From Chloranthus sessilifolius (lineage: Eukaryota; Streptophyta; Magnoliopsida; Chloranthales; Chloranthaceae), in the NCBI GenBank assembly GCA_021018995.1, contig CM037590.1, forward strand, positions 81,500,097-81,564,096: a DNA stretch of 64,000 bases. Direction: 5' to 3'. Positions 1,265-63,882 of the stretch are shown here, piece by piece (position 1 is the first letter of the stretch; each line of letters starts with the position of its first letter). The translations under genes were made by a program, and so were the position numbers. The notes under the pieces are model-generated. The model saw only the letters and a program-made list of their open reading frames with translations. It did no database searches and was not told where the DNA came from.

Positions 1265-1270
1265 AGTTTT

Positions 1271-1288: not shown

Positions 1289-1464
1289 TTAGATTTTAAA
1301 ATTGGTAGACCTAAGTTTTTTTTTTTTTTTTTTTTTCATCAGTGCTAACTCTTTCTATTGCTTGAATCTATTCAGTTATTCCTATACAGTAGAGTTTGGA
1401 ATCTACTCAGTAAGGAGTATTGAAGATTTGCTTTGCATAATTTTTTTCTCTGTATCTATGTTGT

Positions 1465-5098: not shown

Positions 5099-5590
5099 TT
5101 GTGCCAAGATGTCCCTTTTGTTTTAAATGATGAATGCCTTAGGGCATTTGAATTCTTAAAAAACTGTTTGATTTCTGCTCCAATACTTCAGTCTCCAGAC
5201 TACTCCCTGCCCTTTAAGCTGATGTGTGATGCATCAGACTATGCTTTGGGAGCTGTTCTTGGGCAGAGAAAGGATAAGCTGCCTCATGTCATAGCTTATG
5301 CCAGTAGATCAATGATTGATGCACAGCTCAATTACACAACAACTGAGAAAGAGCTGCTGGCAGTTGTTTATGCCTGGGAGAAATTCAGGTCATATGTTTT
5401 GGGTTCACGAATTGTGGTGTTCACTGACCACTCAGCCCTGAAATACCTTTGGTCTAAGAAGGATACCAAACCAAGACTAATCAGATGGATCCTCCTATTG
5501 TAGGAGTTTGATTTGCAGATTAAAGACAAAAGGGGTGTGGAAAATGTGGTGGTTGATCACCTGTCTAGAATTCTGACTACTGAGATTGAT
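5099..5590 (+). pseudogene. RNase H domain, element A
   Basis: This domain removes the RNA template during reverse transcription. [16 protein letters not shown] (about 5220) carries the first catalytic Asp, [16 protein letters not shown] (about 5340) the Glu, and [10 protein letters not shown] (about 5420) the next Asp. VVDHLSRIL near 5550 marks the usual end. A TAG at 5501-5503 stands where element D has Gln. The domain is otherwise well preserved. Confidence 0.88.
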
Positions 5591-6943: not shown

Positions 6944-7140
6944 TGTCACACAACTGTATCATATGTATTTTAACTGTGTCTGTTATGTGAGTTTTTGCAT
7001 AGTTTTGTGTAATTGTTTTTCTCTGTTTTAGTCATGTTTTAGTTAAATTTTCTTTGAGAAATCATAATTTCTGAAAGCTTTGTGGTTTTGAATTGATTGA
7101 GAGAATAAATTCCAATGATTTTAATTTATAGATTTTGTTA

Positions 7141-7176
<36 letters not shown>

Positions 7177-7847
7177 TTTTGTACTATAGAACATGTGTTC
7201 GAAAGTACATTCATACTTTTCGAAAAGTTTTACAGTCATTTCGCAAAAGAAAATTCAGTTCGAAAAGAATAAACTCCTTTTTGAAAAGGATCTAAACCTA
7301 TAACCACAACTTTTCAAAAAGAACTGTAAACCTTATGAATAGATGCAGATCTTTTCGAATAGATGTTTCTGAACCCATTTGCTTTGCAAAAGGTACTGAT
7401 GCCTTTCTCCTTTTCAAAAAGGATTTTTTTTTAACTTTTTGAAAGAATCATTAATGCTTTGCGAAATCGATTTAAACATATTTAAAAACCTTCAAATAGA
7501 GGTTATCTATTCGAAAACATCTCTAGCGTGTCCTGCTCTGCCACAGGAAACTTTTTTTTCTCCATCTCTGGGTTCTTTTCGAATCTAGACCCAGTTTTCT
7601 TCATTATTTTTCCGCTGATTAAGCTTGAAGAGAAGGATCTTTTGCCTCTGACTCCTGTGGATTTGATCAAGCGATCAAATATTTCGAGCAAACCCTAGGT
7701 TTTGGTATTTTCCTCTCCATATCCTCTGTCTGTGCTTTAAAATTTTGATTTCTGTTTAAGCATACATTGTCTGGGATTCAAGAGAGTTGTTTATTGATTT
7801 TTGATAGAAGGAGGAATTATTTGAACGAGTTTTTAGAAAATTTTAAA
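6944..7847 (+). other. Post-pol spacer of element A with TTCGAA-type motif cluster
   Basis: No gene is seen. A TA microsatellite is at 7144-7173. From about 7195 to 7580 a motif built on TTCGAAAAG or TTTGCGAAA, on either strand and in decayed forms, occurs about a dozen times (near 7199, 7218, 7238, 7258, 7275, 7312, 7353, 7418, 7458, 7510 and 7576). The same motif fills the LTR at 12067-12330. The stretch then resembles a 5' leader running into ORF3. Confidence 0.75.
7144..7173. repeat. (TA)n microsatellite
   Basis: About 30 bases of alternating A and T lie just after pol in element A. Not seen at this place in the other elements. Confidence 0.95.
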
Positions 7848-10064
7848 ATGGGAAAAGCTAAAAAATCGTTGGCTAAGATGTTCCCTAAGTCTTCTGCTAA
7901 GAAAGCTAGCAAATCCTCCACCAAAGGAAAAACTAAAACCTCAGCCAAGAGGAAATTGTCGATGGATAAGGCTGATAGGATTGAGAAGGGAAAGAGGGTC
8001 AGAATTGAGGAACCCATCCCTGATGCTGACCCTATTCCTGAGACTGAACTTCCTCCTCTTCCTAAGCAGTTGGTGTTTCCAAACCCTTTCATTGAAGCTC
8101 AGAAGATGATTCAAGAGCTTAATGTGAAAGAGAATTTTTTCTTGAACAAACCAAAATGTAAGCTATCCCTGCAATACATCAGGGATGCTTCACTGAGTAA
8201 TATCCTGACTCCTCTTCCAGAGAAAATTTATCCAAGAATTGTGAGATTATGGTACCAGAACATGGTAAAAGTGAGTGAGAAGGTTGCTGATGTCCCAACT
8301 CTGGTAATTTTTATTGATGATTGTGATTTAACCATCACTTATGAAGATATTGGAAATGCCTTGGGGATACCATTTCAGTATGATCCCGCTGGCCCTTTAG
8401 CTACACCCGAGGAAGCCTCTTTTAGAGATATGGCTGCCCATCTGATCCAAGGTATAGTTGGAACTGGGCAGTCCATCATGAGGAGAGACTTAGCACCCCA
8501 ATTTTTGCTAATGAATTCTATTTTGAGAGGGAGTTTGTATGTCATTGGGCACACTTAGGAAAGAAGGACACCCAGTCTGGAGGCCCTCTTTCACTTTTCT
8601 AAAGGGCAATTCTTCAATGCCCCCATGCTGATATTTGAAGCAATGGCTGGCATCAGTGCCAAGTTGAAGAAAGAACAGAAAGTGGCTGGAATACCATTTG
8701 GAAGGTTGATCACAGCCTTACTAAGGGTTAAATTTGATATTGATGAGCTAGAACCTTTTGAGATTGTAAGACCTCATACTTTTGGGAAGAGGGCTTGGAC
8801 TACAAGCCAAACTATCTTGAAAAGAATGAGGGAAGAGGCAGAGCTAGCCCAGGAGGCTGCTATCCCTGAACCTGAGGTGACTAGCTCTTTAGCTGCACCT
8901 TCAGCTACCATTGAACATACTACTAATGTTGAGGAGACCATCATCATATCCACCTCACATATCCCAGCACCTATCCCAGCAGTTCCATCTCTCATCACCA
9001 CCACAATTCCCATTGTAGATTCTCCTCCAACACCAACCATTCCAGCCATACTTACACCACCATTTTCACCTAACAATCTCCCAGATATACCCATAGATTT
9101 CGTTGTAAACCCACCTAGTTCTCCTCACCAACACAGCTTCTCAGGTTCACCAGCCCATTCATCTCATACACCTGAGATCACCCATACCTATGAACCTCGG
9201 ATATTTACCACTGAGGCCTATTCATCCTTGATGGAATCCATCATGGAGAATATTGGGCATGAACATGCCCTAGTTCCTGAACCCTCCACATTCATCCCAC
9301 CTATTACTCTTCCACCACCTTCACCAATCACACCAGTCACCACTCTTCCTATCCCACACACACCTGACCCAATTAGCCAAATGTTCACCCTCCTCAAACC
9401 TATCCAAGCACAGCTGCAAACCAACACAAACAACCAGCCTGTTGTATATTCCTTTCTCCAAACCTTGGCCTCCACATCCCAACCAACTACCTCATCCACA
9501 GTACCCTCCATCTCTGGCCATGCTACCCAAACTAAACCTGAGGTAGTACTTTTAGATTCACCTTCCCACACCCCCACTGCTGGAATATATATGGTCCCCT
9601 ACCACTCCATTCATGTTCCACATTTTGCCACTCTTCAAAGGGCTATGGAGGGAAACCCTTACATCTCGAGCGATGTCCTTAAGGGGATTGCAGATCTTCA
9701 AGCTTACATAAAGACTCCTTATGAGGAAAAATTAGGAAGTTGGAGCTGTTTATACAATTTGAGAGAGATAAGATGCAGGACCTGCTGAACCAAACCTATC
9801 AGATAGTTAGGGGTGAGAAGCACACAGTTGCCCTATTACAAGAGGAGCTTGTCAAAGAAAAAACTGAGGACAAATAGAGAAAAAGAGAGGGCTAATAGAC
9901 TTGAGAAATATATTGGCCTCACTAGAAAGATCAAGTCTGAGGAGTACACCGAACTCCAAGCCACAATCCAAGAGCAAGCTGAATCAAGTTCAGACTCCAA
10001 TACTGACTCCAGTTCTGAACCCATTGAACCAACTTATGATTCAGATTTTGACCCTAGTTATTAG
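7848..10064 (+). pseudogene. ORF3 of element A (Athila third ORF, broken)
   Basis: A third ORF of about 740 codons. The chosen Met at 7848 opens a Lys/Ser-rich basic stretch (MGKAKKSLAKMFPKSSAKK); an upstream in-frame Met lies at 7767. The folded-looking part at about 8150-8760 includes RIVRLWYQNM and a segment ending EDIGNALGIPF. This resembles the plant family often annotated as putative plant transposon protein; the link is from memory. A long Pro/Ser/Thr-rich region (8870-9590) and a charged helical tail follow. I see no signal peptide or membrane segment, so env-like is not supported. Damage: TAG at 8556-8558 and two compensating frameshifts near 9730 and 9875. Confidence 0.75.
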
Positions 10065-10206
10065 ACTACCTTGTACATTTTTTTTTTTGTTGTTTGTTTA
10101 GTGTTTAATTCCTATTTATTGTTTACTTCTGTTGAATTGTCCATTACTGTGCATTTTTTTTTCTGTCATTGTGCTTATTTTTTTTTACTTATCCACTTCT
10201 AGACCA

Positions 10207-10243
10207 GTGAGGACACTGCTCCTCATAGGTTTGGGGGTGTGGC
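10207..10243 (+). other. Hairpin plus internal polypurine-like motif
   Basis: TGAGG-ACACTGCT-CCTCA can fold as a 5-bp stem, followed by AGGTTTGGGGGTGTGG. The purine part repeats the sequence of the true tract at 11785-11801. Counterparts are at 16182, 23546, 49011 (minus) and 62657 (minus). Confidence 0.65.
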
Positions 10244-11648
10244 AGAGATGCCAATAATTTAGTTAACATTAATGCAACTTATGATCAGCAGAATTTTTGA
10301 AAATGAAGTGATTTCCCACCTATTTTTGAAAAATGAGGAAGTTAAAACTTTTTTAAATTGATTTCTAGTCTGATTCTAATACTTTCATGAAGTGAATGTC
10401 AGAAATTTTCCAAAAGAAAATAAATGCTTTAGTAAACCTAAAAAGAGAGAAAACAATGATGATATACCTTAGGAATTTGATAGAAAACCACACCCAGTGA
10501 GATTTGGGGCCTGAAATGTATTCTTTGGAGGTATGAATTTGCAAATTTTTCTGCTCTAGAGACTGTTTAAACCTGCTTGTTATCACTAGAAGTTACACAT
10601 ATCCAAGTTAAAACAGCTTGACAGCAATCATGATATTAAAGACATGATGTAAGGCCTCCTTTTGGACAGTTTGAACTTCAAAAAGTCCCACCTTTTAAAA
10701 CTGCCCTTGACACACACCATTTGAGCTTTATAAATCCAAGATTTCTTTGAAACCTCATCAACCTCATTTAGCCTAACCCTCACTCTGAGAATTCAGAAGA
10801 TAAAGGAAAGAAAGTTGAAGAAAGGTGAGTTGGGTAACAGTTTGGTAAAAGAAAAAGAAAAATAATTGAAGGCAATGATGTATCAGCAGAAGAAATGTGG
10901 TATTCCAGTCAATTTTGTTGTTAAAAAAAAAAAAAAAAAAGAAGTCATTTCATTGAAAGTTTGAAAAAAGAAAGAGAAAAAGATGGCCACGTTGGCTCTA
11001 AAAATTCAAAGAAGAAGATGAAATTGTGCTGAAATGAAGAAGGTGTGTATACCACCTCCTTACCTTAATTGACTTCTAAAAATTTTGAACTCCATTCCAC
11101 CCCTTTATTCTTGATAAATTTCACCCATAAGCCACATTACAACCCAAGTTAAAGTCCTTACTGATCAAAGATGGATTGAGCTGTCACATGGAGATAAGGA
11201 TTTGTGTAATCTATGGTGAAAAGAGCAGTAAATTCAGAACTGAAAAGCAATGCCCATGCTCCTGCTTACAGTTCTATTTGAGGGCTGTAACTGCTCTTGA
11301 GGTGTGTGAAATAGTAAAACCCACCTACTTGTATGTTGAGTGACAGCCCTGGTGAGAGTTGAGTTTGAAATCAACTTATTTGAGGTAACATCATAGCAGC
11401 ATTCTCAAATAGAAGGCAAGCTTTTCATTAATTTTTCTTTTAAAGCATTTTGACACAAACTGAGTGAATGGTAAAAGAATTACAACAGAATTTCAGTTTT
11501 GAATTGATGTTTTCTTGGGAATCCTCTTACAGTTTGATCGATGCAGGTGTGAATAATCTGTGATTTGATGAAAGTCTGTTTAACAAAACTGCATTAATAT
11601 TAACTGATTTATTGGAGAAGTTTGTGGGTACCTTCACTGAAAACCGTC

Positions 11649-11682
11649 AGGAGACTTCACTCCTCCGCTAGGGATCACCTAG
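11649..11682 (+). other. Conserved twin hairpins before the polypurine tract
   Basis: AGGAG-ACTTCA-CTCCT (11649-11664) and CTAGG-GATCA-CCTAG (11668-11682) are two perfect 5-bp stems placed side by side. The same pair occurs in B, C and D, and partly in H. Confidence 0.65.
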
Positions 11683-11784
11683 GGGTTTAAAAGGCTTGTT
11701 GCATATGCTAAATGTAATTGTGCTCCCTACAAAAGTGGCTTTTCACTTTGTTTTTAATTTTGTCTTTGCTCAGGGACTAGTAAA

Positions 11785-11801
11785 GATTAGGTTTGGGGGT
11801 G
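11785..11801 (+). other. Polypurine tract of element A
   Basis: The purine-rich stretch AGATTAGGTTTGGGGGTG ends directly at the TG of the 3' LTR, the expected place for plus-strand priming. The preceding GGGACTAGTAAAG block is shared with the other elements. Confidence 0.82.
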
Positions 11802-13670
11802 TGTTAAGAACTGAAAAATACCATTTTCCACCCCTTAACCTGGGCCTTGATAGACATTTGAGAGAACTAAATAAGTTTTTTAAGTGTTTGTCTTACAGCT
11901 AACAATAAAGGCAGGCTTAACCCTGAAAGTAGCTTAAAAGTGCCAAAAAGATGAGGACCCATCTTGATCTGGAGGAAGAAGGAGAAGGGACAACCTCACT
12001 GGCTGTCAAAATGCCTAAACTAAAGAAGACAAAGGCCTAGTTTCAACCTGGAAATAGGTTTGGAGCTATTCGAAAGGAAGAATGCACTACAGAATGCTAT
12101 TCGAAAGGATTCCTGATCTATTCGAAAAGAACCTGAACACTGCGAAAAGAACTAAAGCTCCAGGCTTGGTTTTCGAAGAGCACCTAAAATCTATTCGAAA
12201 GGAATCAAACTTGCTGATGATCCTTTCAAAAAGAAGAAAACTCCTTACGAACAACACCAATTCTGTGCGAATAGAGCTCCAGAAGTTACAGTTCCTTTCG
12301 AAAAGGCCCCCAATCTATGCGAAATAGTATTCTAAAGATTCTCAGCACGCGCTCCAATGCATTTAAAAACCTAAGGGCATTTTGGAAAATTCTGAGCACG
12401 AACCAGAGGCATATTCCACTCCATGTGAACACCCAAAGATTAAATTACTTGGAGGGAACTTCTAGAAGCTCAAACAGATTTTTGAATTACCTAACAGAAT
12501 TTGATGCCTCTGTCCCCTAATTGGCTGAACTAGATCAAGTAGTTCTGATTGGCCAAAACAGATCTGAATCCTTGTGCTCGACTCCTATTAGTTGATATGG
12601 ATCTAACCAATTTTGATTGGTTGATGCACATCTGAGCTGTACTTGGAGAAAACTATAAATAGATGAACTTTTGCCCAATTTGGGCATCCAGAATTTGAGT
12701 TTCATTCCTGCTGCCCTATGGTCCAATTCAGATCAAGATAGCTTGTCTGAAACCTTTGTAATAGCCTAGACTTTGTCTGTAACTGAGAACTGTGAGATAC
12801 TTGTGTAATTCAAGTGAGAATTGTATTCAAGACTACAAATCTGAGAGCTGTTGTAAGCTGTGTTCAGTAATTGTAATGGTGGATTTGAAAAGGTTGTTTT
12901 CATCAGTACATTCTCAATCGGATTCATGCTTTGAGGGTTCATTGTGATCTCCTCACTCATTAGCTTCCTTTAGATTTGCTGTTTTTAAGCAATTTCCCTT
13001 AATTCACGATCCCTGTTAGAATCTGTGTTTGTAACCTGGTTCTTATAGCTTTTGTAGTGGTGTTTATGTTTTAAATTAAGACTTTGATTTGATGAAGAAA
13101 ACTATTGGATGATCTGTGTCCATGATAATGGACAGATCATAATCATAAGCTCAACTCAATTCTAATCCTTGAATTGGATTATTTTCTCTTACATCTGAGC
13201 TGGTAGCCAGATGAAGATTTGATACTTTCTCAACTGTGTTACACTATTTCTCATTCTGCAATCAATTACTAAGCTTAAGCTAGCTATTATTTCTCCATTC
13301 TTATTAATTTTGCATCTAATTCCCCCAACTCGGATCTAGATCACTTAGTTTAAATTTTACTTTTAGATAATATAGTTAATGTGACAAATTCAACCTCCCA
13401 TCTTACTTGCTTTGTAGATAGGATTAGAGGCCAGATTTGGTAGCTCAGATCTGGAGGTTTACCATACATTTTAAATCAATTCTCTGTGGACGATCTTTTA
13501 CTCACTTACGTTTAAAACTTGCTACAATTGGCCCTGATCTTGCAGGCTAATTGATTTCTCTCTGTGCTGATATTTTCCTTTTTTTTCGTTTTCCAATTTC
13601 AGTATAGTCCATACTATGAAAAATCTGTTTTCAGAATACAAATAAATCATGCACACTTAGGAAGAAAACA
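11802..13670 (+). repeat. 3' LTR of element A (1869 bp)
   Basis: Starts TGTTAAGAAC and ends GAAAACA, with the polypurine tract before it. Solo LTR S (1868 bp) and the LTRs of C (1867 and 1865 bp) are the same family. The region 12067-12330 holds about ten TTCGAAAGG or TGCGAAAAG motifs. A TATA box lies at 12653-12662. Confidence 0.93.
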
Positions 13671-19267: not shown

Positions 19268-21134
19268 TGTTAAGTAGTGAAAAATACCATTTTTCACCCC
19301 TAAACATGAGCCTTGAAAGACCCTTGAGAGGACTAAATAAGTGCTTTAGTGTTCATATTGCAGCTAACCAAAAAGACAGGTCCAAATCCGAAAACCATCC
19401 TAAAATGATCAAAAAGCTGACAACGCATGTCAAGCTCAAAGAGGGAGTGAAGAAATAGCCTCAGCAATGGCTAAAAAGGTCCTAAAAGAGCAAGAAAAGA
19501 CCTGAAGAAGAAGAATGGAAGCTAAAGCTCAATTCGCAAAGAACTTCTACTATTCGCAAAGAACCTTGAACTTTGCGAAAAGAAGAAAACACTCCTCGAA
19601 TAGAAGAATGACCTTTGCGAAAAGAAGAAAACACTCATCGAATAGAAGAATGACCTTTGCGAAAAGAAGAGAAGTCCTTTGCGAAAAGATCTCCTGAAGC
19701 CAAAATGCTTTGCGAAAAGATCTCCTGAAGCCAAAATGCTTTGCGAAAAGATCTCCACGAAGCCAAATGCTTTGAAGAGAGCTTCGAGCCAAACTACTTT
19801 CTAAAATCCCTTAAACTATGCGAAATGGCATTCGGGATTTGCGGCTCGTCCGTGGGGTATTTCAGAAACTTTGCACGCCCCAATGCGTTTTAAAACCCAA
19901 GGACATTCGGAAGATTCTACACGAACCAAAGGCATATTCCACCCATGTGAACACCCAAAGATGAAATTACTTGGCGGGAACTTCTAGAAGCTCAAACAGA
20001 TTTTTGAATTACATAGAATTGATGCCTCTATTTCTGATTGGTGAACCGGATCAAGCATTTCGATTGGCGAGCAGATCGGATCCCGGTGCTCGACTCCTAT
20101 TGGTTGATACTGATCTATCCAATTGATTGGTTGATACACATCGAGTGGCTTAGGAAAACTATAAATAGACGAACCATTTGCCCAATTTGGGTATCCAGAT
20201 TTTAGAGTTTTCATCTCTGTTTCCCTCATTCCGGTCGAGATAGCTTATCCGAACCCCATAATCCCTTCTTGTAGTTTACCTTTGAGAGCCATTGTGAGCG
20301 ATTTGTACTTCCAAGTTCGGATTCAAGATCAGAATCGAGGCTCTCGAGAAGCTCAAATAAGTCCGAGAGCTCTCTAAGAAGCCGTGCTCAGAATTGTAAC
20401 GTTGGATTTTAAAGGTTCTTGTAATTTGTGTCTTCTCCATTGGAGTCATGTCGAGGGTTCCAATGATCACCTTAGTGCATTAGACTTCTTTAGATTCACT
20501 TATCCGCATCCAACTTCCTTAATTCATCATCCTGTGCGAATTAGCGTTGGTAACCTAATTCAAGCGGCATTTACGATGATGTTCATGTTACGAACTAAAG
20601 AATAGGCCACACTAGTGACGGATCTGTGATCACGACCATAAGTCTAAACCTATTCCTTAATTCGGATTTATTTCTCTTACATACGTCTTTGGTAGCCGAT
20701 GAAGATTGAATCTGCCTGTTGAACCTGACTCTCCATTAAAATTCGAGGCTAAAGTACATGAAGCTATTATTTCGCATTTGTCTTATTTTAAACATCTCCC
20801 CAACTCGGATCCGGATCATGTAGTTAGTTCTTTTCTTTATTTGCTTATAGTTAAATGTGACACAATCCAACACTCTCTTTTATCTATTCTTTATTTTAGA
20901 TAATTATAGAGCGGTCTTAGAATCAGATCCGAGGTTTATCTCTAGACAAACTTCTCTGATCTTGAAATACTTACTTTTAAAACTTGCTACAATTGGCTGA
21001 TCTTGCAGGCCAGTGTTAGCCCCAATGTGCTGATATCCCTTTCATAAGTTAACATCCATATACCCTAGCATTCTTTAATTCTTTAATTTTTGATTCATAA
21101 TGCACACAATTATGCCACACTTGGAGCGACAACA
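19268..21134 (+). repeat. 5' LTR of element C
   Basis: Runs from TGTTAAGTAGTG to GCGACAACA and is paired with 25138-27002. A TATA box lies near 20158. The motif array at about 19530-19820 uses TTGCGAAAAG and CTCGAATAG. Confidence 0.93.
19571..19768 (+). repeat. Tandem motif repeats in C 5' LTR
   Basis: Two units of about 42 bp, each with TTTGCGAAAAGAAG and TCGAATAGAAG, are followed by three units of about 31 bp built on TTTGCGAAAAGATCTCC. The array is the A-family LTR motif expanded in tandem. The 3' LTR has a decayed version at 25435-25620. Confidence 0.85.
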
Positions 21135-33156: not shown

Positions 33157-33573
33157 ATGCCAACGTTTAAATGATGCAGAAGGCTCGAGGAAGAAGAAAA
33201 CTATTTGGGAAAAAACTAGGGTAGGACTGGGCGAAAATAGATTTTGATTGATGAGGAATGTGTTAAATAGCCCTATGCTTATAACTCGATCGGTCAAAAA
33301 ATCGCTTCGACCGGTCATAAAATTGGAGCAAAGGGAATTGCTCAGCACTGCTTCAGATGCGAAGTGTAAATCCCCTATTTCTACCTGTCGAACTCTTTTT
33401 CGACCGGTCTGAACACAACAAAAGCTTTGGATTTTGCTGTGTTTCTTCCTTCCTGATTTACTAGACCGGTCGAAATCTATTTTGATCAGTTCAAATCTAC
33501 TGGAGAACTCTGTTCTCAACTAGATTTCTTGGACACACACCTAAAAATTTAAATTAAGTAGCTTTACAAATGC
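33157..33573 (-). other. Post-pol-type spacer of F with ACCGGTCGA motifs
   Basis: No gene. Motifs related to GACCGGTCGA occur near 33289, 33308, 33386, 33400, 33463 and 33484. The F LTR carries the same motif at 36355-36665. Confidence 0.7.
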
Positions 33574-35345: not shown

Positions 35346-35351
35346 AAAACT

Positions 35352-36904
35352 TGATCATCTTAAAATATGACCTTGCAAGTTCACAAGTCCGAATGTACTA
35401 GGGCAAGTACAAGGTTGTCGAACCACAGGGATTTTTCGTTTATCTCTTATTCAATTTCTATTTTACAGAGAATCTTGTAGCATTAGATTTCCTAAATTAT
35501 TCTAAAATAAATAAAAGAGATCTACATACTTTTGGAAATAAGGAAGGAAAAGGCGAACTGGAACCCTCTTGGATTCCAGATTCGTACATAATAAATCCTA
35601 TTTCTTTTCTATTATGGATCCTAGTTACCCCCGCTCCTGGCTATAAGCTCAGTCACATTGTAAATGAATCAAATAGATCTAATCGCGAGTTTGATAAACC
35701 TAATCGTCAAAGAACCATTGCACGAACCATCAAAACTAACCTACAAGGCCGAGTCCGTCAGTGAATATCCTATCTAGACTAACTCCAATCCCTACGAGGT
35801 CACTAGAATTAAACTAAATTAGATTACAGTGTTACCATCGTGTTGTCGATCTAGTCGGAACCTCAAACATGCAATCGTACCAATAATGGAATTCACAAAT
35901 AGAAAAAAAAACATAAGTATATTAAAATACTTATTCAAAATTTACAAGAGATTCTGCCCGAAGCTTAAGCACGCATTGACTTAGAGACCCTCATCATCAC
36001 TAATGCAGGTTCTGATCAATGATTACATCCAATCTCCCTCCATCCTAGTACTATTCCTAACCTAAAACTACGAAAACTCACATCAGAATCCTCTAGAAAA
36101 GTTCTGGCATGCGAGTCCCCTAAAACTTAACCCTAGGGTCCTTATTTATAGATTACAAGACCCTAGAACAATTATACACGATAAGAAATCTCAATAGAAC
36201 CTAAAAATCATCCAAGGGGATGAATCTGAAAGGAATTCTGTGAAATTTAGAGTTATCCAGCTTGTTAAAGAGAATCCCGAAGAAGATTTCAGCATTTGAA
36301 GATATCCACAGCTGTGCAGACCTTATTTTTTGCTCAGAAACACTGTTGTGGTTGGTCAGGATTGGAGAACTGGCCGGTCGACTTTATTTTCCTTTTCCAG
36401 GTAGAAGACGATCCCGTGAGGCTTCAACATTCTTTATTTTCTAGACCAGTCGAGATTGGAGTGACCGGTCAAAGAACCCTTGAGATTTTCTTTATATTTC
36501 TTGTTGTATTTTTGACCGGTCTCATCTTATGTTTCTGATGCCCTTAGCGCTCTGACCGGTCGAATATGACTCTTTGAGCGGTCCATTTTGGACTTGTTCT
36601 CTTCCTCTTCATCTCTACTCTACTGTGCCATCCCGATCGATCAAATCTGTAATTTCGACCAGTCCATTTAACCTTTTAAAGTAGTCCTTTCAGCTGCATT
36701 CCTTATATCCTTGCTGTTTGCTTGGGTTTCTTCATATCTTTGCTCTTTTAACACTTTTTATGTTTAACCCTCTTTTACACCTGCTACAACACAACATGAA
36801 CTAAAAGCACACATTAGTAGTTACGTGAGGTCTAACAAGGCCTAGATTTGGGGATAATTATACAACTTTTGAGACCGATCAATAGTCTACCAGTCGATAT
36901 ATCA
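35352..36904 (-). repeat. 5' LTR of element F (about 1.55 kb)
   Basis: Bounded on the left by the primer site and on the right by E gag. Termini on the plus strand are TGATCATC and about ATATCA. The motif array with ACCGGTCGA lies at 36355-36665. The right boundary may be off by three bases. Confidence 0.7.
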
Positions 36905-39588: not shown

Positions 39589-41456
39589 TGTTGTTGTTCT
39601 GAGTGTGCATGATTTATTTGTATTTTGAAAACCGATTTACAAATGATGAATTATACTGAATTTGGAAAATTAAAAAGAATAAAGAAATATCAGCACAGAG
39701 AGAAGTAAATTAGCCTGCAAGATCAGGGCCAATTGTAGCAAGTTTTAAATATAAGTGAGTAAAAGATCGTCCACAGAGAATTTATTTAAAATGTAAGATA
39801 AACCTCCAGATCTGAGCTACCAGATCTAGCCTCTGATCCTATCTACAAAGCACATAAGATGGGAGGTTGAATTTGTCACTTTAACTAAATGATAAAAGTA
39901 AAGATTACACTAAGTGATCCAGATCTGAGTTGGGGAGATTTTGATGTAAATTAATAAGAATGGAGAAATAATATCAAACTTTGATTTGGTTCTTGAAACA
40001 CAATGAGAATAAATGTAGATCAAATGAGAGATGATCCAATCTTCATCTGGCTACAAGCACAGATGCAAGAGGAAATAATCTAAATCAAGGATTAGAGTTA
40101 AACTTATGGCTATGGTATGTCCACTTCAATGGCCACAGACCATCCAATAGTCTTTAATCTAAACCCTCAATTCAGAACAAGAAATACCACTACAAATGCT
40201 GTGAAAGATTAGGTTACAAACACTAATTCCCACAGGGATAATGAATCAAGGGAAATTGCTTGAAAAACAGTAAATCTAAAGGAGTCTAGCGCAATAAGGA
40301 GATCACAGGGAACCCTCAACACGAATCCAATTGAGAATGTACGGTTCACAGCTACCTTTTCAAATTCACCATTACAATTACATAGCACAGCTTAAACAGC
40401 TCTTGGATTTGTAGTCTTGAATACAATTCTCACGTGAAGTACAGAGACATCTCACAGCTCTCAGTTACAAATAAAAGCTAGGATATTACAGAAATTTCAG
40501 ACAAGCTATCTGAAATGGAAATGAGGCAATAGAAATGAAACTCAAAATCTGGATACCCAAATTGGGCAAATGGTTCATCTATTTATAGTTTCCCCCACGT
40601 CTAGCTCAGATGTGTATCGACCAATCAGAAGTGCTTAGATCTGTATCAACCAATGGTAGTCAAGCACGAGGATCCAGATCTATTTTGGCCAATCAGAATT
40701 GTATCTTTTGTTTCAGCCAATCAGATGACAGAGGCATCAATTCTGTTATGTAATTCGAAAATCTGTTAGAACTTCTAGAAGTTCCCGCCAATTGATTTCA
40801 TCTTCGGGCGCTCACATGGGGTGGAATATGCCTTTGCTTCGTGCTCAGAATCTTCTGGAATGTCCCTGGGTTTTTTAATGCATTGGGGCGCATGCAAAAG
40901 ATTACTGAATTACCCTTGCAGATGCTAGGAATCTCCAGAATACCATTTAGCATAGTTTAGGAAATTTTTCGCAAGGTACTATGACTTCTGAAGCTCTTTT
41001 CGCAAAGTTCAGGTTCTATTCGCAAGGAGTTCTCCTCTTTTCGAATAGGTCAAACATCCTTTCGAAGAGTTCAGGTACTCTTCGAAAACTAAGTCTGGAG
41101 CTTTTAGTTCTTTTCGCAAAGTTCAGGTTCTTTTCAAAATGTTCAGATTCTTTTTGAAAAGCACTCTGTAGTGCATTCTTCTGTTCGAATTGCTCCACAT
41201 TTCTTTTATGGGCTGAGACCAGGTCTTTGCCTCTTCAGTTCAGGCATTTTGACAGCTAGTGAGGTTGTCCCTTCTCTTTCTTCCTTTGGATCAACATGGA
41301 TTATCATCTTTTTGGCACTTTTAGGCTGCTTTCATGGTTAAGCCTGTCTTTATTGTTAGTTGTAACACAAGCACTTAAAACACTTATTTAGTTCTCTCAA
41401 GGGTCTATCAAGGCCCAGGTTAAAGGGTGAAAAATGGTATTTTCTAGTTCTCAACA
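39589..41456 (-). repeat. Solo LTR S (A family, 1868 bp) in RT of E
   Basis: A full-length A-family LTR in reverse orientation, flanked by CTAAC at 39584-39588 and 41457-41461. No internal sequence is present, so the rest was probably lost by recombination between LTRs. Removing it with one CTAAC rejoins the RT frame. The TATA box is near 40577 and the motif array at about 40960-41190. Confidence 0.93.
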
Positions 41457-43365: not shown

Positions 43366-44576
43366 CTGAAATGTTTGTTGAAATGAGGGGTCTTGGTGAT
43401 CCTATGATATGATTCTACATTTTGTCGGGTTGACGATAATTAAATTCAGCACTTCTTAGCAGGCAACCCAATGATTTGAAAATAATAATAATAAAAAAAT
43501 TAAAATAAAAAATTTTGAGCTCCCGAGTTCATGGCCACGAATTAAATATCGCGGCCACAAACTTGGAACTAACTTAGTGCTCCTTAAGGAGCGAGAGCAG
43601 GGGATCAACTTTTATTCTTCTCTTTTGTCGTTTTCTCTGCATGTGCATGTCTGGCTTATGTATTGGAAAATCCCACTAGATTTCCTCTGAAATTCTCTTT
43701 TGATGATGACATGCCTTCTCCCCCAATCACCTTCGAACCCTATCATGATTTATGGGCCAAATGGGAACTTGTGCAACGTACGAAAGAGATTGGGGTCTAC
43801 CGTCAAGAAGAGGTCCCCACAGCTGTGCCATTAATCCCGCATACTGTTTGAGACACTTTTATTCCACCCCCGTGACCCACTGCATAGGACCCCATACCAG
43901 AATCATAACATGTTTCTCGTTCGCCACGTTGGATTTTTTCTGAGGACGACTTCCTCTAGTCTCGACTCCCCAACTTTTTGTATGATTTTGAGAAATGGGA
44001 GTAACTAGTGCACGTCAAGATCACAGAGGAGATGGCCCGAGCATGGCGCTGAGATAGTCTAGTTTGGCCAATGCTAGTTGTTAGGATGTTTAGTTTTCTT
44101 TATTTTAGTTTTAGTTGTTTAGTTAGGTTTAGAGATAGGATTTGTCTTTTCGTTTTTCCTTTCTTGTAATCAACTCCTTAAACAAATCCAAGCTCTTTTA
44201 TTTTTAATTTTAATAATTAATGATCATGGATTGTTTGATTAAGTTTGGAATGGGTGATTTAACTTATGAAGTTATAATGATGGATCATGTGGACTAACCC
44301 GCGAGACACGATTGCATGCTAGATCACACCTAATCAGATCACGTTCCCCCACGTTGGCCATCGAATTCGTAGCCACGAGTTCAAACTCGTGGCCGCGAGT
44401 GCACATGCTTAAATTTTTGGCCTCATTCTCATGGCCACGAGTTTGAACTCGTGGCCACAAGGATGGTCCACCGTTAAATAATCCACATTGTGGGGCCCAT
44501 TTTTGAAATAGTTTGCACTCCCACACGCCCGTTCAATTCTTTATCTTTCCATTCCTTGTGTTTTTACTTCACTTCC
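43366..44576 (+). other. Post-pol spacer of E with GGCCACGAG motif
   Basis: No gene is seen. The post-pol box is at 43449-43472. GGCCACGAA or GGCCACAAA forms occur near 43533 and 43552, and the fuller motif in two inverted pairs at 44373-44400 and 44432-44458. The E LTR lies outside the window, so the expected LTR partner cannot be checked. Confidence 0.65.
44432..44457. repeat. Inverted repeat with GGCCACGAG arms
   Basis: The arms TGGCCACGAGTT and AACTCGTGGCCA are separated by two bases. A similar pair, AGCCACGAGTT and AACTCGTGGCC, lies at 44372-44395. Confidence 0.85.
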
Positions 44577-44880
44577 ATGGCTAGTCGAGGCTCAAAACAC
44601 ATGGCAGTGCCACCCTCCAAGCGCTCTCACGATGAAGGACCTTGTTCCATAGAACCTCCTAAAAAAACTATGGATTCTCAATTTGCACATAAGAAAATGG
44701 TGTCGGAAGTCTTATTTGACATTCCATTCTTTCAAACGATGCCTAAGGTTAAAACAGGCCTTGATATAATCCATAAGGCCGACTTGCAAAATTTCTTGTC
44801 CCCTCCGACTGAACCAATGTATCCACATCTTATACGCCTCTTTTATTAGATGTTGGAGTGGGTTGAGATGCCTGAGTCAC
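44577..44880 (+). pseudogene. ORF3 of element E, first part
   Basis: Starts MASRGSKHMAVPPSKRSHDE, a basic N-terminus comparable to ORF3 of A. FLSPPTEPMYPHLIRLFY (44795-44848) aligns with ILTPLPEKIYPRIVRLWY of A. A TAG follows at 44849-44851. Element D inserts at 44881 with a GTCAC duplication; the frame before it is compatible with that after it at 58543. Confidence 0.72.
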
Positions 44881-47365
44881 TGTTGCATTTCCCAGTGTGC
44901 TTACTTTATTTGTTGGTGGTAAAAGCAATTTAAAATCGAAGTAAAACAGTGGATGGAATCAGCACAACTGAGAAATCCTAGACCTGCAAGATACAGGGTC
45001 CATTGTAGCAAGTGTTGATAAGTAAGAGTTTGTCCCACAGGGAAAAGTTGGTCTACAGCTCCAAGGGAGCCATCTCTAGTAGTCCCTCCAGATCTGGCTA
45101 CAGATCTGGCAGTCTTAAAAGGAGAGGAGTTTAGGGTCACTTATTCTAAGTATCCTAAGGTAGCCTAATAATTAACTACAGAAAAGGTTGAGAAGATGGA
45201 TGGAGTGTGGGAAAATATATATAAAAGGGTGAGAAGTATGCTATTGAGTTCAGATCTGTTGGAATTTATGACTCAGATCCAGGTTTGCTGTTATAGAAAT
45301 CCTGTCCAATGGCTACATTATCACCAAAGAGGATAAAGAATCCAACTCATCCCTGTGCCATGATCCAATCCCTTAAGGTTATAACCTGTCCACTTAAATG
45401 GTCACAGACTATCCCATAGGGGAATCACAATCCAGAGAGGGGTCAAAACAAGTTAATCATTATAGGCACTACTTCATCCAGGCTACAAGCTCAGGAATCC
45501 ATAGGGAACCTCAACCTCTAAAGCTCTATGTGTGGGGCTAAGGCTATATAGGACCATGATAGCCCAGACACATAGAACCAGTAAGAGATTGAGTACCACC
45601 TTAGATCTAGCTGTCCATTGCTTGAGTGGGACTACAATGGTCCAGTCACAAGCCTACAATCTCCATACCTAGATCAGATCTGCCATCTGATGGCGGATCT
45701 ATACTAATATAGGGGAGTCTGCCTCTGTACAATCTCCTACCAGGCTACAAGCTCAGGCTCGGAGAAGAAGGATCCATTTTGGATCGACGGATTGGATTCA
45801 CCCTAAGGCTATAACCTGTCCACTTGAATGGTCACAGACTATCCCAGAGGCTATCCTCCTCACAGAGCCCAAAACAAAACAAGAATATTGCTGCCACCAC
45901 CATGGTCACAAGGCTACCAGCTCAGGCTTCCATGCGGATTTCATATCTAGTGGGTCCTGTGGTGGGGCTAAGGCTGTATCGGACCATGATAGCCCAGACA
46001 CACAGGTCATTTGGATCTGAATGGGTCCTTAGAATTAGTCCTCCATTGCTTTGAATCACAGCCAAAGCAATGGTAGATCACAAGGCAGCAGCCTTGCACA
46101 GAGCAACTCACATTCGCACAAATCCCATAAAAGTACAACACCCAATCACAAACTCTATTAGTCTAATCTCAATAAACATACATAGGCATGGCCAGCAAGT
46201 GCTGGGCCATGGAGGGAAGAAAAAGAAAAAGGAAAACTACTTACAACTACAGAAGAATAGAAAAAGAAAAAGATCTCAGATCACTTCTCAGTGATAAAGT
46301 ATGGACTATTCTCCTTTCTCTAAGTTTAAAAAGCTCTCCTAAACCTAAACCAGGCTTAGGTTTATATAGCAGTGGGTGTGGCGGCGCATTAAGGTTAGGA
46401 AACCCTAATTTTAACGATGCCACGTGGCCTATTAATGATCCTTGGATGCCTCGGGGCGCGTGCATAGAGATTCGAGCGTGAGAGTTAGTGCCCTAATCCT
46501 TGGAAATTCCCAGAAAGTCCTCTACTGAAGCGATGGAAGGTTAAAGTTCAGAGCTTCACTAGGTAGCCATTGTTTCCCAAACTCTTTGTGTGGTAGCTCT
46601 GTTCTTCGCGAGGATGAGTTATCATTAAAACTTCAGACGTCGTGGGGTTGCAGCTTCTTGATGCTTTGAGCAGTTGCGAGGTAGATAGTTAAGCTCTCGC
46701 TGGATTGGGCTTCGCGCAATTGGATTGCTACTTGTGAATAGCGCGAGAACTGCGTGAGCATTCCATTTCATAATAGATCTTTGTGAGGCTAACTCTGGCT
46801 TCGCAAGGCTGCTTTCTTCCTGAACAGCGCGAGAACTGCGCGAGAAGTTCACTTCTTAATGGAACTTCGCGAGGATCCTCGAGATAGCTTTGAGGCTTTT
46901 CTAAATTGCGCGACAGGTTCTCTTGACATTTGCATCCCGCGGCTACTACGTGACAGCTGCGCGACAACTTTCCTGAAGCTCTCTTGAACTGCGCGAGACT
47001 GCGTGACCTTTAACTTTTGAACTTCGCAAGAGCTGCGTGACTCAAGGCTTCTGAAGCTCTTCTGTCACTCAACTGTGCGAGAAGTTGTTATGAAGTCTTG
47101 GGAATTCGTGAGGACTATGCGAAGCATATTTTTTTGAATCCTTTGGAGCTTTGGGAAGTTGCAGGAGGCTCTTCTCAGGTCTGGATTCAGTTCTCCTTCT
47201 GAGGGACTTTTGGGGTCAAAACAGGCTCCTTCACAGGATATCTGGCCTTATTGTACTGCTGTCTATTACCTATAGAAAACACTTAACAAACCTTTATTAG
47301 ATGGCTAAGGGTCTAATCAAAGGCTAAGTTAAGGGGTGAAAAGTGGTACTTTTCAGGTCTTAACA
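44881..47365 (-). repeat. 3' LTR of element D (2485 bp)
   Basis: Plus-strand ends are TGTTGCA and TTAACA. It lacks a short tandem stretch (AAAGCTCCTCC-type) present in the 5' LTR near 57480-57510. CGCGAG-type motifs fill 46590-47170. A TATA-like TATATAA (minus) lies at about 46362-46368. Confidence 0.93.
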
Positions 47366-49461: not shown

Positions 49462-50065
49462 TGTTAGGACTAGGGAAGGACCGCTAGGGTGAGAGGAGAA
49501 AGGATGAGATGAATCTGAAAGGGACTCCCTGTGTATTTAAAGATGAGGATGGTAGAAGATGAATCGGCGTAATAACATCCAAGTTGCTGCAATTAATTGA
49601 GAGTGAGTTGGGAAGTGAAAAGTTATAGCAATCAGTGTGGGAAATGACAAATGCATGTAACTCGCGCAGCTGGTCAAGGGGATCGCAAGATAGGAATGGA
49701 ATCTCGCGATGATGGATGTTGCAGCTTGCAGTGTGCGAGAGGCTCTGCACCATTTGTTGAAGCTCGCGACGGTGTAATAAATACTCTATGTAAATTGAGC
49801 GAGAGCTTCCCAAATCCCAATTTGGAATGCGCGAGGGCGTAGTACCAAACAGGGAGCAATTCATGCAGTGTAGCATACTCATCAAAAATATTCAGACAGT
49901 ATGCATTCAATTCAAAAATCATCAAATCACAGAAGAAGTAATCATACCATCCCCACATAAACTCTATCAAACCCAACAGACTCAGACCCCATCGAGACAC
50001 TACAATTTCCTAAAAACTATTGAAGAAATAAAAGTAGTATAGTACAACATGGACACAACTGTGGG
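49462..50065 (-). other. Post-pol spacer of D with CGCGAG motifs
   Basis: No gene. CTCGCG, GCGCGAG or GCGAGAG occur near 49662, 49685, 49706, 49735, 49764, 49798 and 49832. The same motif fills the D LTR (46590-47170 and 57770-58340). Confidence 0.75.
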
Positions 50066-56026: not shown

Positions 56027-58537
56027 TGTTGCAACCCCAATGTGCTTACTTTATTTGTTGGTGGTAAAAGCAATTTAAAATCGAAGTAAAACAGTGGATG
56101 GAATCAGCACAACTGAGAAATCCTAGACATGCAAGATACAAGGTCCATTGTAGCAAGTGTTCATAAGTAAGAGTTTGTCCCACAGGGAAAAATTGGTCTA
56201 CAGCTCCAAGGGAGCCATCTCTAGTAGTCCCTCCAGATCTGACTACAGATCTGATAGTCCTAAAAGGAGGGAAGTTTAGGGTCACTTATTCAAAGTATCC
56301 TAAGGTAGCTTAATGAATTAACTACAGAAAAGGTTGAGAAAATGGATGGAGTGTGGGAAAATAAATATAAAAAGGTGAGAAGTATGCTATTGAGTTCAAA
56401 TCTGCTGGAATTTATGACTCAGATCCAGGTCTGCTGTTATAAAAATCCTGTCCAATGGCTACATTATCACCAAAGAGGAGAAAGAATCCAACTCATCCCT
56501 GTGCCATGATCCAATCCCTTAAGGTTATAACCTGTCCACTTAAATGGTCACAGACTATCCCATAGGGGAACCACAATCCAGAGAGGGGTCAAAACAAGTT
56601 AATCATTGTAGGCACTACTTCATCCAGGCTACAAGCTCAGGAATCCATAGGGAACCTCAACCTCTAAAGCTCTATGTGTGGGGCTAAGGCTGTACAGGAC
56701 CATGATAGCCCAGACACATAGAACCAGCAAGAGATTGAGTACCACCTTAGATCTAGCTGTCCATTGCTTGAGTGGAACTACAGTGGTCTAGTCACAAGCC
56801 TACAATCTCCATACCTAGATCAGATATGCCATTTTATGGCGGATCTATACTAATATAGGGGAGTCTGCCTCTGTACAATCTTCTACCAGGCTATAAGCTC
56901 AGGCTCGGAGAAGAAGGATCCATTTTGGATCGGCGGATTGGATTCACCCTAAGGCTATAACCTGTCCACTTGAATGGTCACATACTATCCCAGAGGCTAT
57001 CCTCCTCACAGAGCCCAAAACAAAATAAGAATATTGCTGCCACCACCATGGTCACAAGGTTACCAGCTCAGGCTTCCATGGGGATTTCAAATCTAGTGGG
57101 TCCTGTGGTGGGGCTAAGGCTGTATCGGACCATGATAGCCCAGACACACAGGTCATTTGAATCTAAATGGGTCCTTAGAATCAGTCCTCCATTGCTTTGA
57201 ATCACAGCCAAAGCAATGGCAGATCACAAGGCAGCAGCCTTGCACAAAGCAACTCATATTCGCACGAATCCCATAAAAGTACAACACCTAATCACAAACT
57301 CCATTAATCTAATCTCAATAAACATACATAGGCATGGCCAGCAAGTGCTGGGCCATGGAGAGAAGAAAAAGAAAAAGGAAAACTACTTACAACTACAGAA
57401 GAATAGAAAAAGAAAAAGATCTCAGATCACTTCTCAGTGATAAAGTCTGGACTATTCTCCTTTCTCTAAGTCTAAAAAGCTCTCCAAAAGCTCCTCCAAA
57501 AGCTCTCCTAAACCTAAACCAGGCTTAGGATTATATAGCAGTGGGTGTGGCGACGCATTAGGGTTAGGAAACCCTAATTTTAACGATGCCACGTGGCCTA
57601 TTAATGATCCTTAGATGCCTCGGGGTGCATGCACGGAGATTCGAGTGTGGGAGTGCGTGCCCTAATCCTTAGAAATTCCTAAAAAGTCCTCTGCTGAAGC
57701 AATGGAAGGTTAAAGTTCAGAGCTTTGCTAGGTAGCCATCGTTTCCCAGACTCTTCGCATGGTAGCTCTGTTCTTCGCGAGGATGACTTATCATTAAAAC
57801 TTCAGACGTTGCGGGGTTGCAGCTTCTTGATGCTTTGAGCAGTCACGAGGTAGATAGTTAAGCTCTCGCTGGATTGGGCTTCGCGCAGTTGGATTGCTAC
57901 TTGTGAATAGCGCAGGAACTGTGCGAGCATTCCATTTCATAATAGATCTCCACGAGGCTAACTCTGGCTTCGCGAGGCTGCTTTCTTCCTGAACAGCGCG
58001 AGAACTGCGTGAGAAGTTTACTTCTTAATGGAACTTCGCGAGGATCCTCACAATAGCTTTTAGGCTTTTTTGAACTATGCGACAGGTTCTCTTGACATTT
58101 GCATCCCGCGGCTACTGCGTGATAGCTGTGCGATAACTTTCCTGAAGCTCTCTTGAACTGCGCAAGACTGCGTGACCTTTAACTTCTGAACTTCGCGAGA
58201 GCTGCGAGACTCAAGGCTTCTGAAGCTCTTCTGTCACTCAACTACGCAAGAAGTTGTTGTGAAGTCTTGGGAATTTGCAAGGACTGTGCGAAGCATATTT
58301 TTTTGAATCCTTTGGAGCTTTGGGAAGCTGCGCGAGGCTCTTCTCAGGTCTCGATTCAGTTCTCCTTCTTCTGAGAGACTTCTGGGGTCAAAACAGGCTC
58401 CTTAACAGGATACCTGGCCTTATTGTACTGTTGTTTATTACCTATAAAAAACACTTAACAAACCTTTATTAGATTTCTAAGGGTCTAATCAAAGGCTAAG
58501 TTAAGGGGTGAAAAGTGGTACTTTTTAGGTCTTAACA
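56027..58537 (-). repeat. 5' LTR of element D (2511 bp)
   Basis: Minus-strand termini are TGTTAAGACC and TTGCAACA. It pairs with 44881-47365. A TATATAA (minus) at 57531-57537 is the likely TATA box. CGCGAG-type motifs lie at about 57770-58340. Followed on the plus strand by GTCAC. Confidence 0.94.
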
Positions 58538-59435: not shown

Positions 59436-60834
59436 TGATTGCTTCTATTATCGTACTAAGTTTTAACCTCTTGCAAGCACACAATGGACATTGTAGCACT
59501 AGTATAGGATCGTTCCCACAAGGAAGGTGACTTTTTGGATGTGTTTGAAATCTTTTATTTGTCTTTTAAGAACCTAAACTACTGGAGAAATATAAATAAA
59601 AGAATGGGTTGTTTAAACTAATATAGAAAATAAATCTATATCCTCCTCCTTCTAGATTATGGTCATCAATCACATTCCTTTAGTTCTCGGATGTTTACAA
59701 AATAAAATCCCGTTACACCGTATCTCAGTCTTCTAGAATCGGGTGTCAATCAACAACTAGAATTTCTTAACACAGATTTACACTAATCAACAATCTATTC
59801 GAAATTTGGGCGTCAATCAAACTCAAGAAAACTGAAGATGGAAAAGTAAAATCGTTACACTAATCTGCAAATTCTCGATCTGAGTCATCAATTCAAATTA
59901 AGAACTTTTAGATGTTTACAAAGCAGTAAAAATACATGAAAATAAATTTAAACTAGCAAGTAAATAAAAGATCTTTCATCCCTCAGTTGTTGGCGTCAAT
60001 TACTTTTAAGAAACTATGGATGCTCTACTCTAATTTTCCAACTTCCGATCACAGCCGTCAATTGCTCTTGAGAAACCTTGGATACCTAAACTACTCTAAT
60101 ACTACCATGATCGGAAGAAAACCCAACTTTAGTCGTTAATTGATGCTGAGAATTCCTTTGATAACTTTATTTCTATGTCGAACCCTCTTATTTATAGATC
60201 ATAAGGGGTCGGTTTACATTGCTCAAATTCTAATAAAAGAAAACTACTAAGAATAAAGATTTCCTAATAAAACTCTAATTTCTAATTCTATTCTTCCTTG
60301 CTTTGACTGGTAGATGCGCTCACGATTGTTCTCCTTTTAAGTAACAGAGACCCTTAGGAGTCTTTCACCAATCTTCTCAGATCCGTGGCTTGCCAAACTT
60401 CTAATATAAGAGATCTTCTCATTCTATGCATGATGTTGTAATTCTCACGTGATTAGCAGCAACAGGAGCTTTAAGTTTGCAAAATCATGAATACAATTTT
60501 TCTTTTCTTTCAGTACGATTCTCCAATACGAATGATCGTATTTCCTTGTTGTGGTACTCTAGTCAGAAGCATTTTCTGAAGAATCGTAAATTGTGATTTC
60601 TCCTTTTTCTCATTAGCTACGTTCATTCGTTAGTACGATTTCTTTCTTTTTAGGCCTTCAAATATGGTTTGAACCATCTTTGCATTCGATCATCTTTCTT
60701 ACTGCCTTTTGAGTTCATTTTGACGAAGATTATCACTTTGACTCTATTTTGTTGTTTGTTCTTAATATCTGCACATCATCCTATCATTAGTAGCAAACTA
60801 GGGTTGATAAATTGGTATAGTCTGTGACGGATCA
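59436..60834 (-). repeat. 3' LTR of element H (about 1.4 kb)
   Basis: The right end is fixed by the polypurine tract. The left end is set by the AATCA terminus and by the end of similarity to X. Fragment X (32864-33156) is an inverted relative. Motifs with TACGATT or AATCGT lie at about 60320-60640. Confidence 0.68.
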
Positions 60835-63383: not shown

Positions 63384-63882
63384 GGCGAAAGATAAACCAA
63401 AGGGTTGGATTGACTAGGGTGGGTTTTTGATTTGTGTACTTATAATCACTCACGGCAAGGATATGATTGTTTGCCATAAATAATGAATATGGAGATGCGT
63501 TGAAAAATACGAACCGTTAGGTGGCCATAATAAATATGGTGAGAAGTGATTGCACGACGTTAATTGAGGCATTGCCTTTGCTACCAGAAAATTGTACCTT
63601 TTCAATTGCAAAGTATGTGGGCCCAAATAGAACACTCTCTTCAGTCGTAATCACTACGATGGTTCGTGAGAGAATTTGCACTCTGTGAGAAATCGTGATC
63701 ACTGCGATTTCTCGAGAATGGAACAACTACTAAATTGATGGTGTCTCCGTCATACGTAAATATACTATGTGTGGTTAAAGGATAAATATCTCTTAATGTT
63801 ATACAATTGAAGAAAACTTAAAGAATACTATACTCAAATTTGCTACGGATGAGTCAGTAGCACGACGATGCCCATGAGCATG
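63384..63882 (-). other. Post-pol spacer of H with CGATT-type motifs
   Basis: No gene. TCGTAATCACTACGATGG, AATCGTGATCACTGCGATTT and TTCTCGAGAA lie at 63644-63717. Related TACGATT forms occur in the H LTR. A segment near 63843-63860 matches sequence just after gag in F (about 33595-33615). Confidence 0.55.

Follow-up and report, generated by a model that had tools for sequence, protein, structure and literature searches.

Family-specific CpG palindromes, helically phased and shared by the long terminal repeat and the post-pol spacer, in retrotransposons of Chloranthus sessilifolius

Several families of long terminal repeat (LTR) retrotransposons in Chloranthus sessilifolius carry arrays of short CpG-containing palindromes both in the LTR and in the spacer that follows pol, with a motif that differs between families and agrees between the sites of one family. 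The arrays were followed from a stretch of 64,000 nucleotides (G000:C7:81500097-81564096; the window), which consists of a nest of LTR retrotransposons, into the genome that contains it (2.17 Gb in 32 contigs). Motif centres within the arrays are phased near the helical repeat of DNA, TATA-like boxes come after many arrays, and in a sample drawn from the genome the spacer arrays go together with an open reading frame downstream of pol (ORF1). Two promoters per element, sometimes three, are probably controlled together by one dimeric DNA-binding protein acting through these arrays.

A sequence-only reading of the window had described paired arrays in elements A, D and F, and its coordinates and motifs for all three are borne out by word counts. 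Counted as words, which are not independent sites (they overlap, so that at least two matches are possible per palindrome), and with motifs and intervals picked by inspection, 21 of 22 TTCGAA(A/T) matches in A lie in 677 bp (spacer 10, LTR 11), with 1 in the remaining 13,011 bp; 40 of 41 CGCG-type matches in D lie in 1,363 bp (8 + 18 + 14 over the spacer and two LTRs), with 1 in the other 12,294 bp; and all 19 matches in F are inside its two sites (9 + 10), with 0 in the surrounding 10,156 bp. An equal density of the motif elsewhere in the same element, which that reading had named as contrary to its proposal, is thus not what A, D and F show. The intervals are those of the earlier reading or lie within about 15 bp of them, and the tests of pairing and phasing given below do not rest on the counts alone. 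Element G, absent from the earlier list, has 9 GGCCACGAG/CTCGTGGCC-type words in its spacer and 1 elsewhere in the window. Allowing one mismatch, TTCGAAAAG occurs 83 times in the window compared to 23.6 +/- 5.1 times in shuffled sequence. CpG is otherwise depleted in the window (observed/expected 0.35). Six motif classes are clear (A, D, F and G, together with C and T from the genome sample), all of them palindromic and all with CpG, and pairing is seen for five (A, C, T, D and F), G being represented by its spacer. Without any filter, CpG words rank first or close to first in the elements with arrays, accompanied in A and in the sampled stretch L034 by AT runs. The arrays in the window are:

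7195..7583, plus strand: post-pol spacer array of A, CTTTTCGAAAAG / TTCGAATAG class, centre spacings 21, 21, 19, 21, 33, 41, 59, 25, 22, 50, 68
12066..12330, plus strand: array in the 3' LTR of A, motif as in its spacer, centre spacings 31, 21, 20, 31, 22, 31, 41, 31, 21
49655..49845, minus strand: post-pol spacer array of D, CTCGCGAAG/CGCGAG class (word counts)
46590..47170, minus strand: array in the 3' LTR of D (word counts)
57770..58340, minus strand: array in the 5' LTR of D (word counts)
36355..36665, minus strand: array in the 5' LTR of F, TCGACCGGTCGA class (word counts; orientation by a site like a primer binding site and by gag)
33285..33490, minus strand: spacer array of F, motif as in its LTR (word counts)
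43534..44456, plus strand: post-pol spacer array of G, CTCGTGGCCACGAG class, copies mostly at 44372-44456
63644..63717, minus strand: spacer of H, weak ATCGTA-type motifs, 1 exact ATCGTA match, cosine 0.11
60320..60640, minus strand: LTR of H, weak ATCGTA-type motifs, 4 matches
19533..19774, plus strand: LTR array of element C, related TGCGAAAAG motif, second LTR copy at 25433-25604
40996..41189, minus strand: TTCGAAAAG-class array in the LTR of E, apparently solo, inside the reverse transcriptase (RT) of G

Pairing was measured by comparing every spacer with every LTR through vectors of six-mer enrichment, with strands pooled and a first-order background. Each of the 12 sets that take one element from every family has the element's own LTR at rank one in 6 of 6 families (p = 1/720), and internal control segments put in place of the LTRs give no pairing signal (p = 0.20-0.73 over runs). 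The test and its controls rule out chance agreement of spacer and LTR, and the within-element correlation of motifs proposed from the window alone is thus found in every family compared. With the addition of L036, a stretch picked for its two motif clusters, the result is 7 of 7, or p = 1/5040, at k = 5, 6 and 7. Element H was retained in these tests despite the weakness of its motifs, and its spacer ranks its own LTR first with a cosine of 0.11 against 0.05. A motif that varies between families and is constant within them, as the earlier reading held, is clear for A, C, T, D and F and weak for H.

Within the arrays, the spacing of motif centres follows the turn of the double helix. For a set limited to at most two arrays from each class, which gives 13 arrays and 157 centre-to-centre distances between 12 and 110 bp, with motif patterns and array limits set by us, a scan of periods from 8 to 14 bp finds the best period at 10.4 bp, with a score reached in 0 of 2000 random placements. 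The same holds for spacers alone (0/2000) and LTRs alone (0/2000), and a phase near 10.4-10.5 bp is the DNA helical repeat. By class, the observed score is reached per 2000 placements 0 times for A, 0 for C, 3 for T and once for D, F, L036 and G taken together; an earlier run on more arrays, in which the centres received a jitter of at most 5 bp, yielded per 500 0 for A, 0 for C, 2 for T, 2 for D and 33 for F. A 22-bp centre-to-centre unit is common to the C and T classes, in spacer and LTR alike. The array copies may stem from old duplications, and spacings of 20-22, 31, 41 and 51 bp together do not amount to one repeat unit. This phasing is new here, as is the position of many arrays directly ahead of a TATA-like box.

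Elements were also sampled by their pol, and not by any motif. A degenerate pattern for the integrase end VNGQRLKP has 4431 + 4317 places in the genome and 0 for the control, and the first 20 of 100 listed places were taken as 10-kb stretches. The start of the LTR was located in 19 of them; the other, L026, has no LTR that could be found and was excluded from the ORF and array counts, and its array, which begins where the sequence departs from that of its relatives, may belong to a nested element. Calling ORF1 by tblastn at E <= 1e-3, we find it after pol in 8 of the 19 scored stretches, with 4.9-6.0 kb from pol to LTR, and not in the other 11 (L016, L017, L019, L020, L022, L023, L027, L028, L029, L031 and L033), with 2.2-2.5 kb. 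Spacer arrays are present in 8/8 ORF1-bearing compared to 0/11 ORF1-less stretches, where copies of the same family are not independent, and LTR arrays in 8/8 and 4/11. The remaining seven ORF1-less LTRs hold none of the three motif classes counted, and the unfiltered words of three of these (L017, L031 and L033) show no clear array.

The palindrome TCAATCGATTGA (C class) is found in six of the ORF1-bearing stretches (L018, L021, L025, L030, L032 and L035), whose spacers hold 13-23 half-site words and whose LTRs hold 5-16, each complete palindrome contributing two. L034 has GTCGATnnATCGAC (T class; 12 in the spacer, 4 in the LTR), and L024 has the motif of element A (12 and 8). In L019 and L025 a second, nested element has the GTCGATnnATCGAC class upstream of its ORF1, which shares 55-56% identity with the ORF1 of L034. 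All six C elements and L034 have four array sites: before ORF1, before a short ORF2, near the first site resembling a polypurine tract (PPT), and in the LTR.

Single palindromes can also be followed through the whole genome. There are 11,860 places with CTTTTCGAAAAG compared to 337 for a reversed control, and among 50 listed places the 39 pairs closer than 25 kb fall at 20-114 bp (10), 4912-5108 bp (8), 7364-7502 bp (4), 12409-12604 bp (9) and elsewhere (8), distances that we read as those between neighbours, from spacer to 3' LTR, from 5' LTR to spacer and from LTR to LTR. In 15 loci read around CTTTTCGAAAAG, five places are within arrays (L002, L004, L007 and L008 in an LTR, L006 after pol) and ten have one or two copies and no array. 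For GACCGGTCGAA the counts are 3240 + 3266 compared to 217 + 209 for the control; its 57 clusters give nine inter-cluster distances below 16 kb, three of them of 2.4-2.8 kb. One such cluster pair is L036, which has an array at each end, one of them together with TATATAAATACC and an ATG. As its DNA has no match to F, L036 is a family other than F with a near-identical palindrome.

Where promoters would be expected, boxes of the TATA type come after many of the arrays. In the C and T classes such a box lies 10-60 bp past the last motif in 9/11 LTR arrays and 5/7 spacer arrays, compared to 6.0% of positions by chance. In several classes the spacer array is followed by a TATA-like box and then an ATG, and the array appears to belong to a second promoter driving the ORF downstream, much as the sequence-only reading had suggested. 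Panda et al. (2016, PMC4977677) annotated transcription starts in Arabidopsis Athila6A and name a promoter of the ENV ORF as well as an internal promoter region, and this annotation gives an internal promoter in such elements support from outside. In the window we find:

7478..7490, plus strand: TATA-like box ATATTTAAAAACC (ATATTTAAA) of the A spacer, in the 3' part of the array, with further motif copies 3' of it at 7507-7518 and 7575-7583; ATG at 7848
12653..12662, plus strand: TATA box CTATAAATAG of the A LTR, about 330 bp past the array
49528..49542, minus strand: TATA-like CTTTAAATACAC of the D spacer, after the array; ATG at 49461-49459
46359..46370, minus strand: TATA box GCTATATAAACC of the D LTR, read from the sequence
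36137..36152, minus strand: TATA box TCTATAAATAAGG of the F LTR, likewise
33255..33270, minus strand: TATA-like CTATTTAAC of F, directly past the spacer array
44471..44579, plus strand: TTAAATAA of G at 44471-44484, then the ORF1 ATG at 44577; this ORF1 is interrupted by D
in 63473-63486, minus strand: ATTATTTATGG of H; ATG at 63383
7848..9788, plus strand: post-pol ORF1 of A, weak Transposase_32 (PF20167) below the Pfam cut-off, in-frame stop at 8556-8558

The arrays would act as upstream control elements, those in the LTR for the promoter of gag-pol and those in the spacer for an internal promoter of the post-pol gene, with three promoters in some families. A sequence-specific and probably dimeric protein would sit on several palindromes along one face of the helix and switch both promoters together; as a family's own palindrome is uniform at all its sites, any change in specificity would have to be fixed at each of them. 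Binding of a protein, activation, and a start of transcription at the internal box are what we infer from the layout of these sites. A number of observations weigh against this account. Elements D, F and H are exceptions to the ORF1 rule in that they have spacer arrays and no match to ORF1; F may have lost it together with pol, and the downstream frame of D is, as we read it, short and broken. The CGATT-type pairing described for H is weak, with 1 (spacer) + 4 (LTR) ATCGTA words compared to 7 in the 4,559 bp around, although its own LTR ranks first; none of its seven top unfiltered words contains CpG. Our pattern finds no box after the LTR array in L022 or L029, and none past the last spacer motif in L021 and L025 (the box of L025 precedes that motif). 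The box before ORF2 is 121-147 bp past the array in 4/7 elements and missing in 3, the third array, near the first PPT-like site, has no box within 60 bp in 7/7, and the TATA box of class A LTRs is about 330-345 bp past the array and not 35-45. In phasing, D alone is not clear (110/2000), and all 12 C arrays together have their best period at 11.2 and not 10.4 bp, a peak that arises because C repeats its 22-bp unit. Finally, four of the six families in the pairing test (A, D, F and H) had been picked by the earlier reader for showing pairs, and the pol-based sample supplied just the C and T classes and L024.

That both sites bind one factor is probable from these agreements in sequence, and to this extent the earlier proposal of one shared host factor stands; its assignment of the factor to the host does not stand out, since an origin in the host and one in the element itself come out even. 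Either origin is a possibility that we put at somewhat less than an even chance. An element-encoded factor would be the post-pol protein, or the product of the second small ORF, recognising the palindromes of its family both in the LTR and at the promoter of its own gene. Such a factor would be wired to itself as a transactivator or anti-silencing protein, its specificity changing along with its targets, and is one branch of what we consider the best explanation. It is favoured by the co-occurrence in a single genome of six clear palindrome classes, every one of which belongs to a particular family, by the C and T classes, which differ in palindrome yet have a common 22-bp geometry and homologous ORF1s, and by the ORF1-less stretches, where spacer arrays are missing (0/11) as are the counted LTR motifs in 7/11. 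Precedents exist in VANC (PMC5735166) and in foamy virus Tas, which works on both the LTR and an internal promoter. However, LTR arrays persist in 4/11 ORF1-less elements, which could be mobilised in trans, and no match to ORF1 accompanies the arrays of D, F and H. The ORF1s of classes A, C, T and G are homologues of one another, with C and T proteins about 30% identical, and the matches to PF20167 (E = 5.7e-8 in L024, 0.0027 in L032, 0.0073 in A) are all under the Pfam cut-off. Profile searches gave this weak Transposase_32 alone and no DNA-binding domain, and searches for protein homologues and for significantly similar solved structures returned none. PF20167 has been linked to Athila (PMC11728184). 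Host transcription factors, a different one recruited by each family for both of its promoters, would account for the LTR arrays of the 4/11 ORF1-less elements and for the arrays of D, F and H, and the C motif TCAATCGATTGA is near to ACAATCGATTGT of the Sirevirus Tnd-1, a Ty1/copia element (PMC2829016). If host factors sufficed, though, one would expect neither several palindromes under one phasing rule nor the absence of the counted LTR motifs from 7/11 ORF1-less elements.

The remaining explanations do without an activator or without a function. Palindromes that serve silencing or structure, as hairpin RNA, as targets of symmetric CpG methylation or as hot spots of small interfering RNA, would suit the CpG-bearing, palindromic nature of all six clear classes in a window otherwise poor in CpG. 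Loop-less palindromes of 10-14 bp make poor RNA hairpins, however, and helical phasing and a position upstream of TATA-like boxes suit a bound protein, so we consider this improbable. An origin of the spacer array by duplication of part of the LTR, or of the arrays as plain tandem repeats, is very improbable. The LTR array of window element C is indeed partly tandem; however, once motifs are masked, spacer and LTR of the same element fail to align (best E = 0.016 in 11 elements, with H and L036 excluded), which rules out LTR duplication in these, and Tandem Repeats Finder lists nothing within the two arrays of A, which rules out simple tandem repeats there. Returning to the two-promoter account, its most specific form would be a circuit in which the post-pol product binds the phased palindromes of the LTR and of the internal promoter from which it is itself expressed, protein and targets switch together, and insulated, family-specific circuits run side by side. 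Judged on sequence features, we hold this form to be on the unlikely side; if true, the label 'env-like' for the post-pol gene would be wrong for these elements.

The closest parallel is found in the Sireviruses, Ty1/copia elements whose CpG palindromes differ from element to element and lie in many copies in the upper half of the LTR ahead of the TATA box, with extra palindromes before env in env-bearing elements only; an internal env promoter was also argued for (Bousios et al. 2010, PMC2829016). The earlier statement that no description of such a pairing was known is therefore not supported. Our elements share with the Sirevirus RM boxes the multiple CpG palindromes in the LTR before TATA (more distant in class A) and the extra copies before the post-pol gene, with the exceptions already given; likewise, four RM-bearing Sireviruses without env have no copies at the corresponding place (PMC2829016). 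The plan is the same, now in Ty3/gypsy elements and with other cores, and hence not unprecedented: Sirevirus cores are CGG-CCG in all but Tnd-1 (PMC2829016), in contrast to TTCGAA, ATCGAT, GTCGATnnATCGAC, CGCG, ACCGGT and GGCCACGAG here. Helical phasing and the arrays before ORF2 and near the first PPT-like site are features of our elements not seen in the parts of the Sirevirus account consulted, and a term search of PMC2829016 gave no statement on box spacing or helical phase.

Athila6A is an Athila element with an internal promoter for a post-pol ORF, and neither arrays of motifs nor motifs common to that promoter and the LTR are described in the portions of PMC4977677 consulted. Among proven self-targeting systems the closest is that of VANC (Hosaka et al. 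2017, PMC5735166), an anti-silencing system with an element-encoded protein that binds the motif and removes DNA methylation, where short family-specific motifs also form dense arrays in several non-coding parts of one transposon and change between related families; VANDAL, however, is a DNA transposon, its YAGTATTAY is non-palindromic and in a single orientation, and the binding protein is proven there. Foamy virus Tas provides the closest two-promoter circuit, with one factor on LTR and internal promoter, in an animal retrovirus; in our elements TATA-like boxes are the only promoter sign. Retand, with TRP28 (PMC11963269), has a similarly long region between POL and the 3'LTR and extra genes suspected of DNA binding or regulation, and differs in its antisense ORFs and family-specific tandem repeats, with no LTR pairing described in the text available. 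Within open-licence PMC text, as far as it was available, the Sirevirus paper was the sole parallel and no description of paired arrays in Athila was found, nor any paper on a plant LTR transactivator with internal promoter and palindromes, or on helical phasing.

The rule known from Sireviruses, by which palindromes occupy the LTR and the region ahead of the extra gene, is thus extended to Ty3/gypsy elements, with six clear classes in a single genome and a phase near 10.4-10.5 bp as a physical signature that would fit a bound protein. It also makes the role of the 'env-like' gene of plant retroelements testable, as binding to the palindrome of its own family. If the post-pol protein does bind its own palindrome, genomes such as this would offer a ready-made set of distinct DNA-binding specificities.

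As to the layout of the window, element A (plus strand) covers 1-13688, its 5' LTR cut by the window edge. Element D (minus strand) has LTRs at 44881-47365 and 56027-58537 that are 93.5% identical to each other, and is inserted within the ORF1 of G, whose pol (plus strand, 37758-43330) is split by the apparently solo LTR E at 39589-41457. Element F is on the minus strand, and the LTR at 36-37 kb is its 5' LTR, as follows from its TATA box at 36137-36152, a TGGCGCC resembling a primer binding site within 35329-35348, and gag, which spans 35026-34355; a pol was not found in the stretch from its gag to its spacer. Both A and D have gag, protease, RT, RNase H and integrase in the Ty3/gypsy order, and the name Athila, given by the sequence-only reading, fits this gene order and the post-pol ORF.

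Some smaller observations concern the same elements. The second array is followed by a short second ORF, whose product in L034 (2660-3041) and L021 (about 2.9 kb; positions counted in the direction of pol) has IIDLD / IIDLES stretches, and in L034 and L018 is basic near the N-terminus. These stretches recall SUMO-interacting motifs. The LTR of element B (18331-18623) has CGCG motifs like those of D, with no alignment of more than 120 bp between the B and D LTRs there. A PPT-like GGTTTGGGGGTGTG occurs twice per element (A 10231 and 11793; D 49025 and 47374), the first far upstream of the LTR, and an extra PPT is mentioned for Athila4 and Calypso (PMC2829016). The TCGACCGGTCGA palindrome is nearly common to the families of L036 and F, which have no detectable DNA similarity, and the Vitis Sirevirus motif CGGTCGACCG (PMC2829016) is also close to it.

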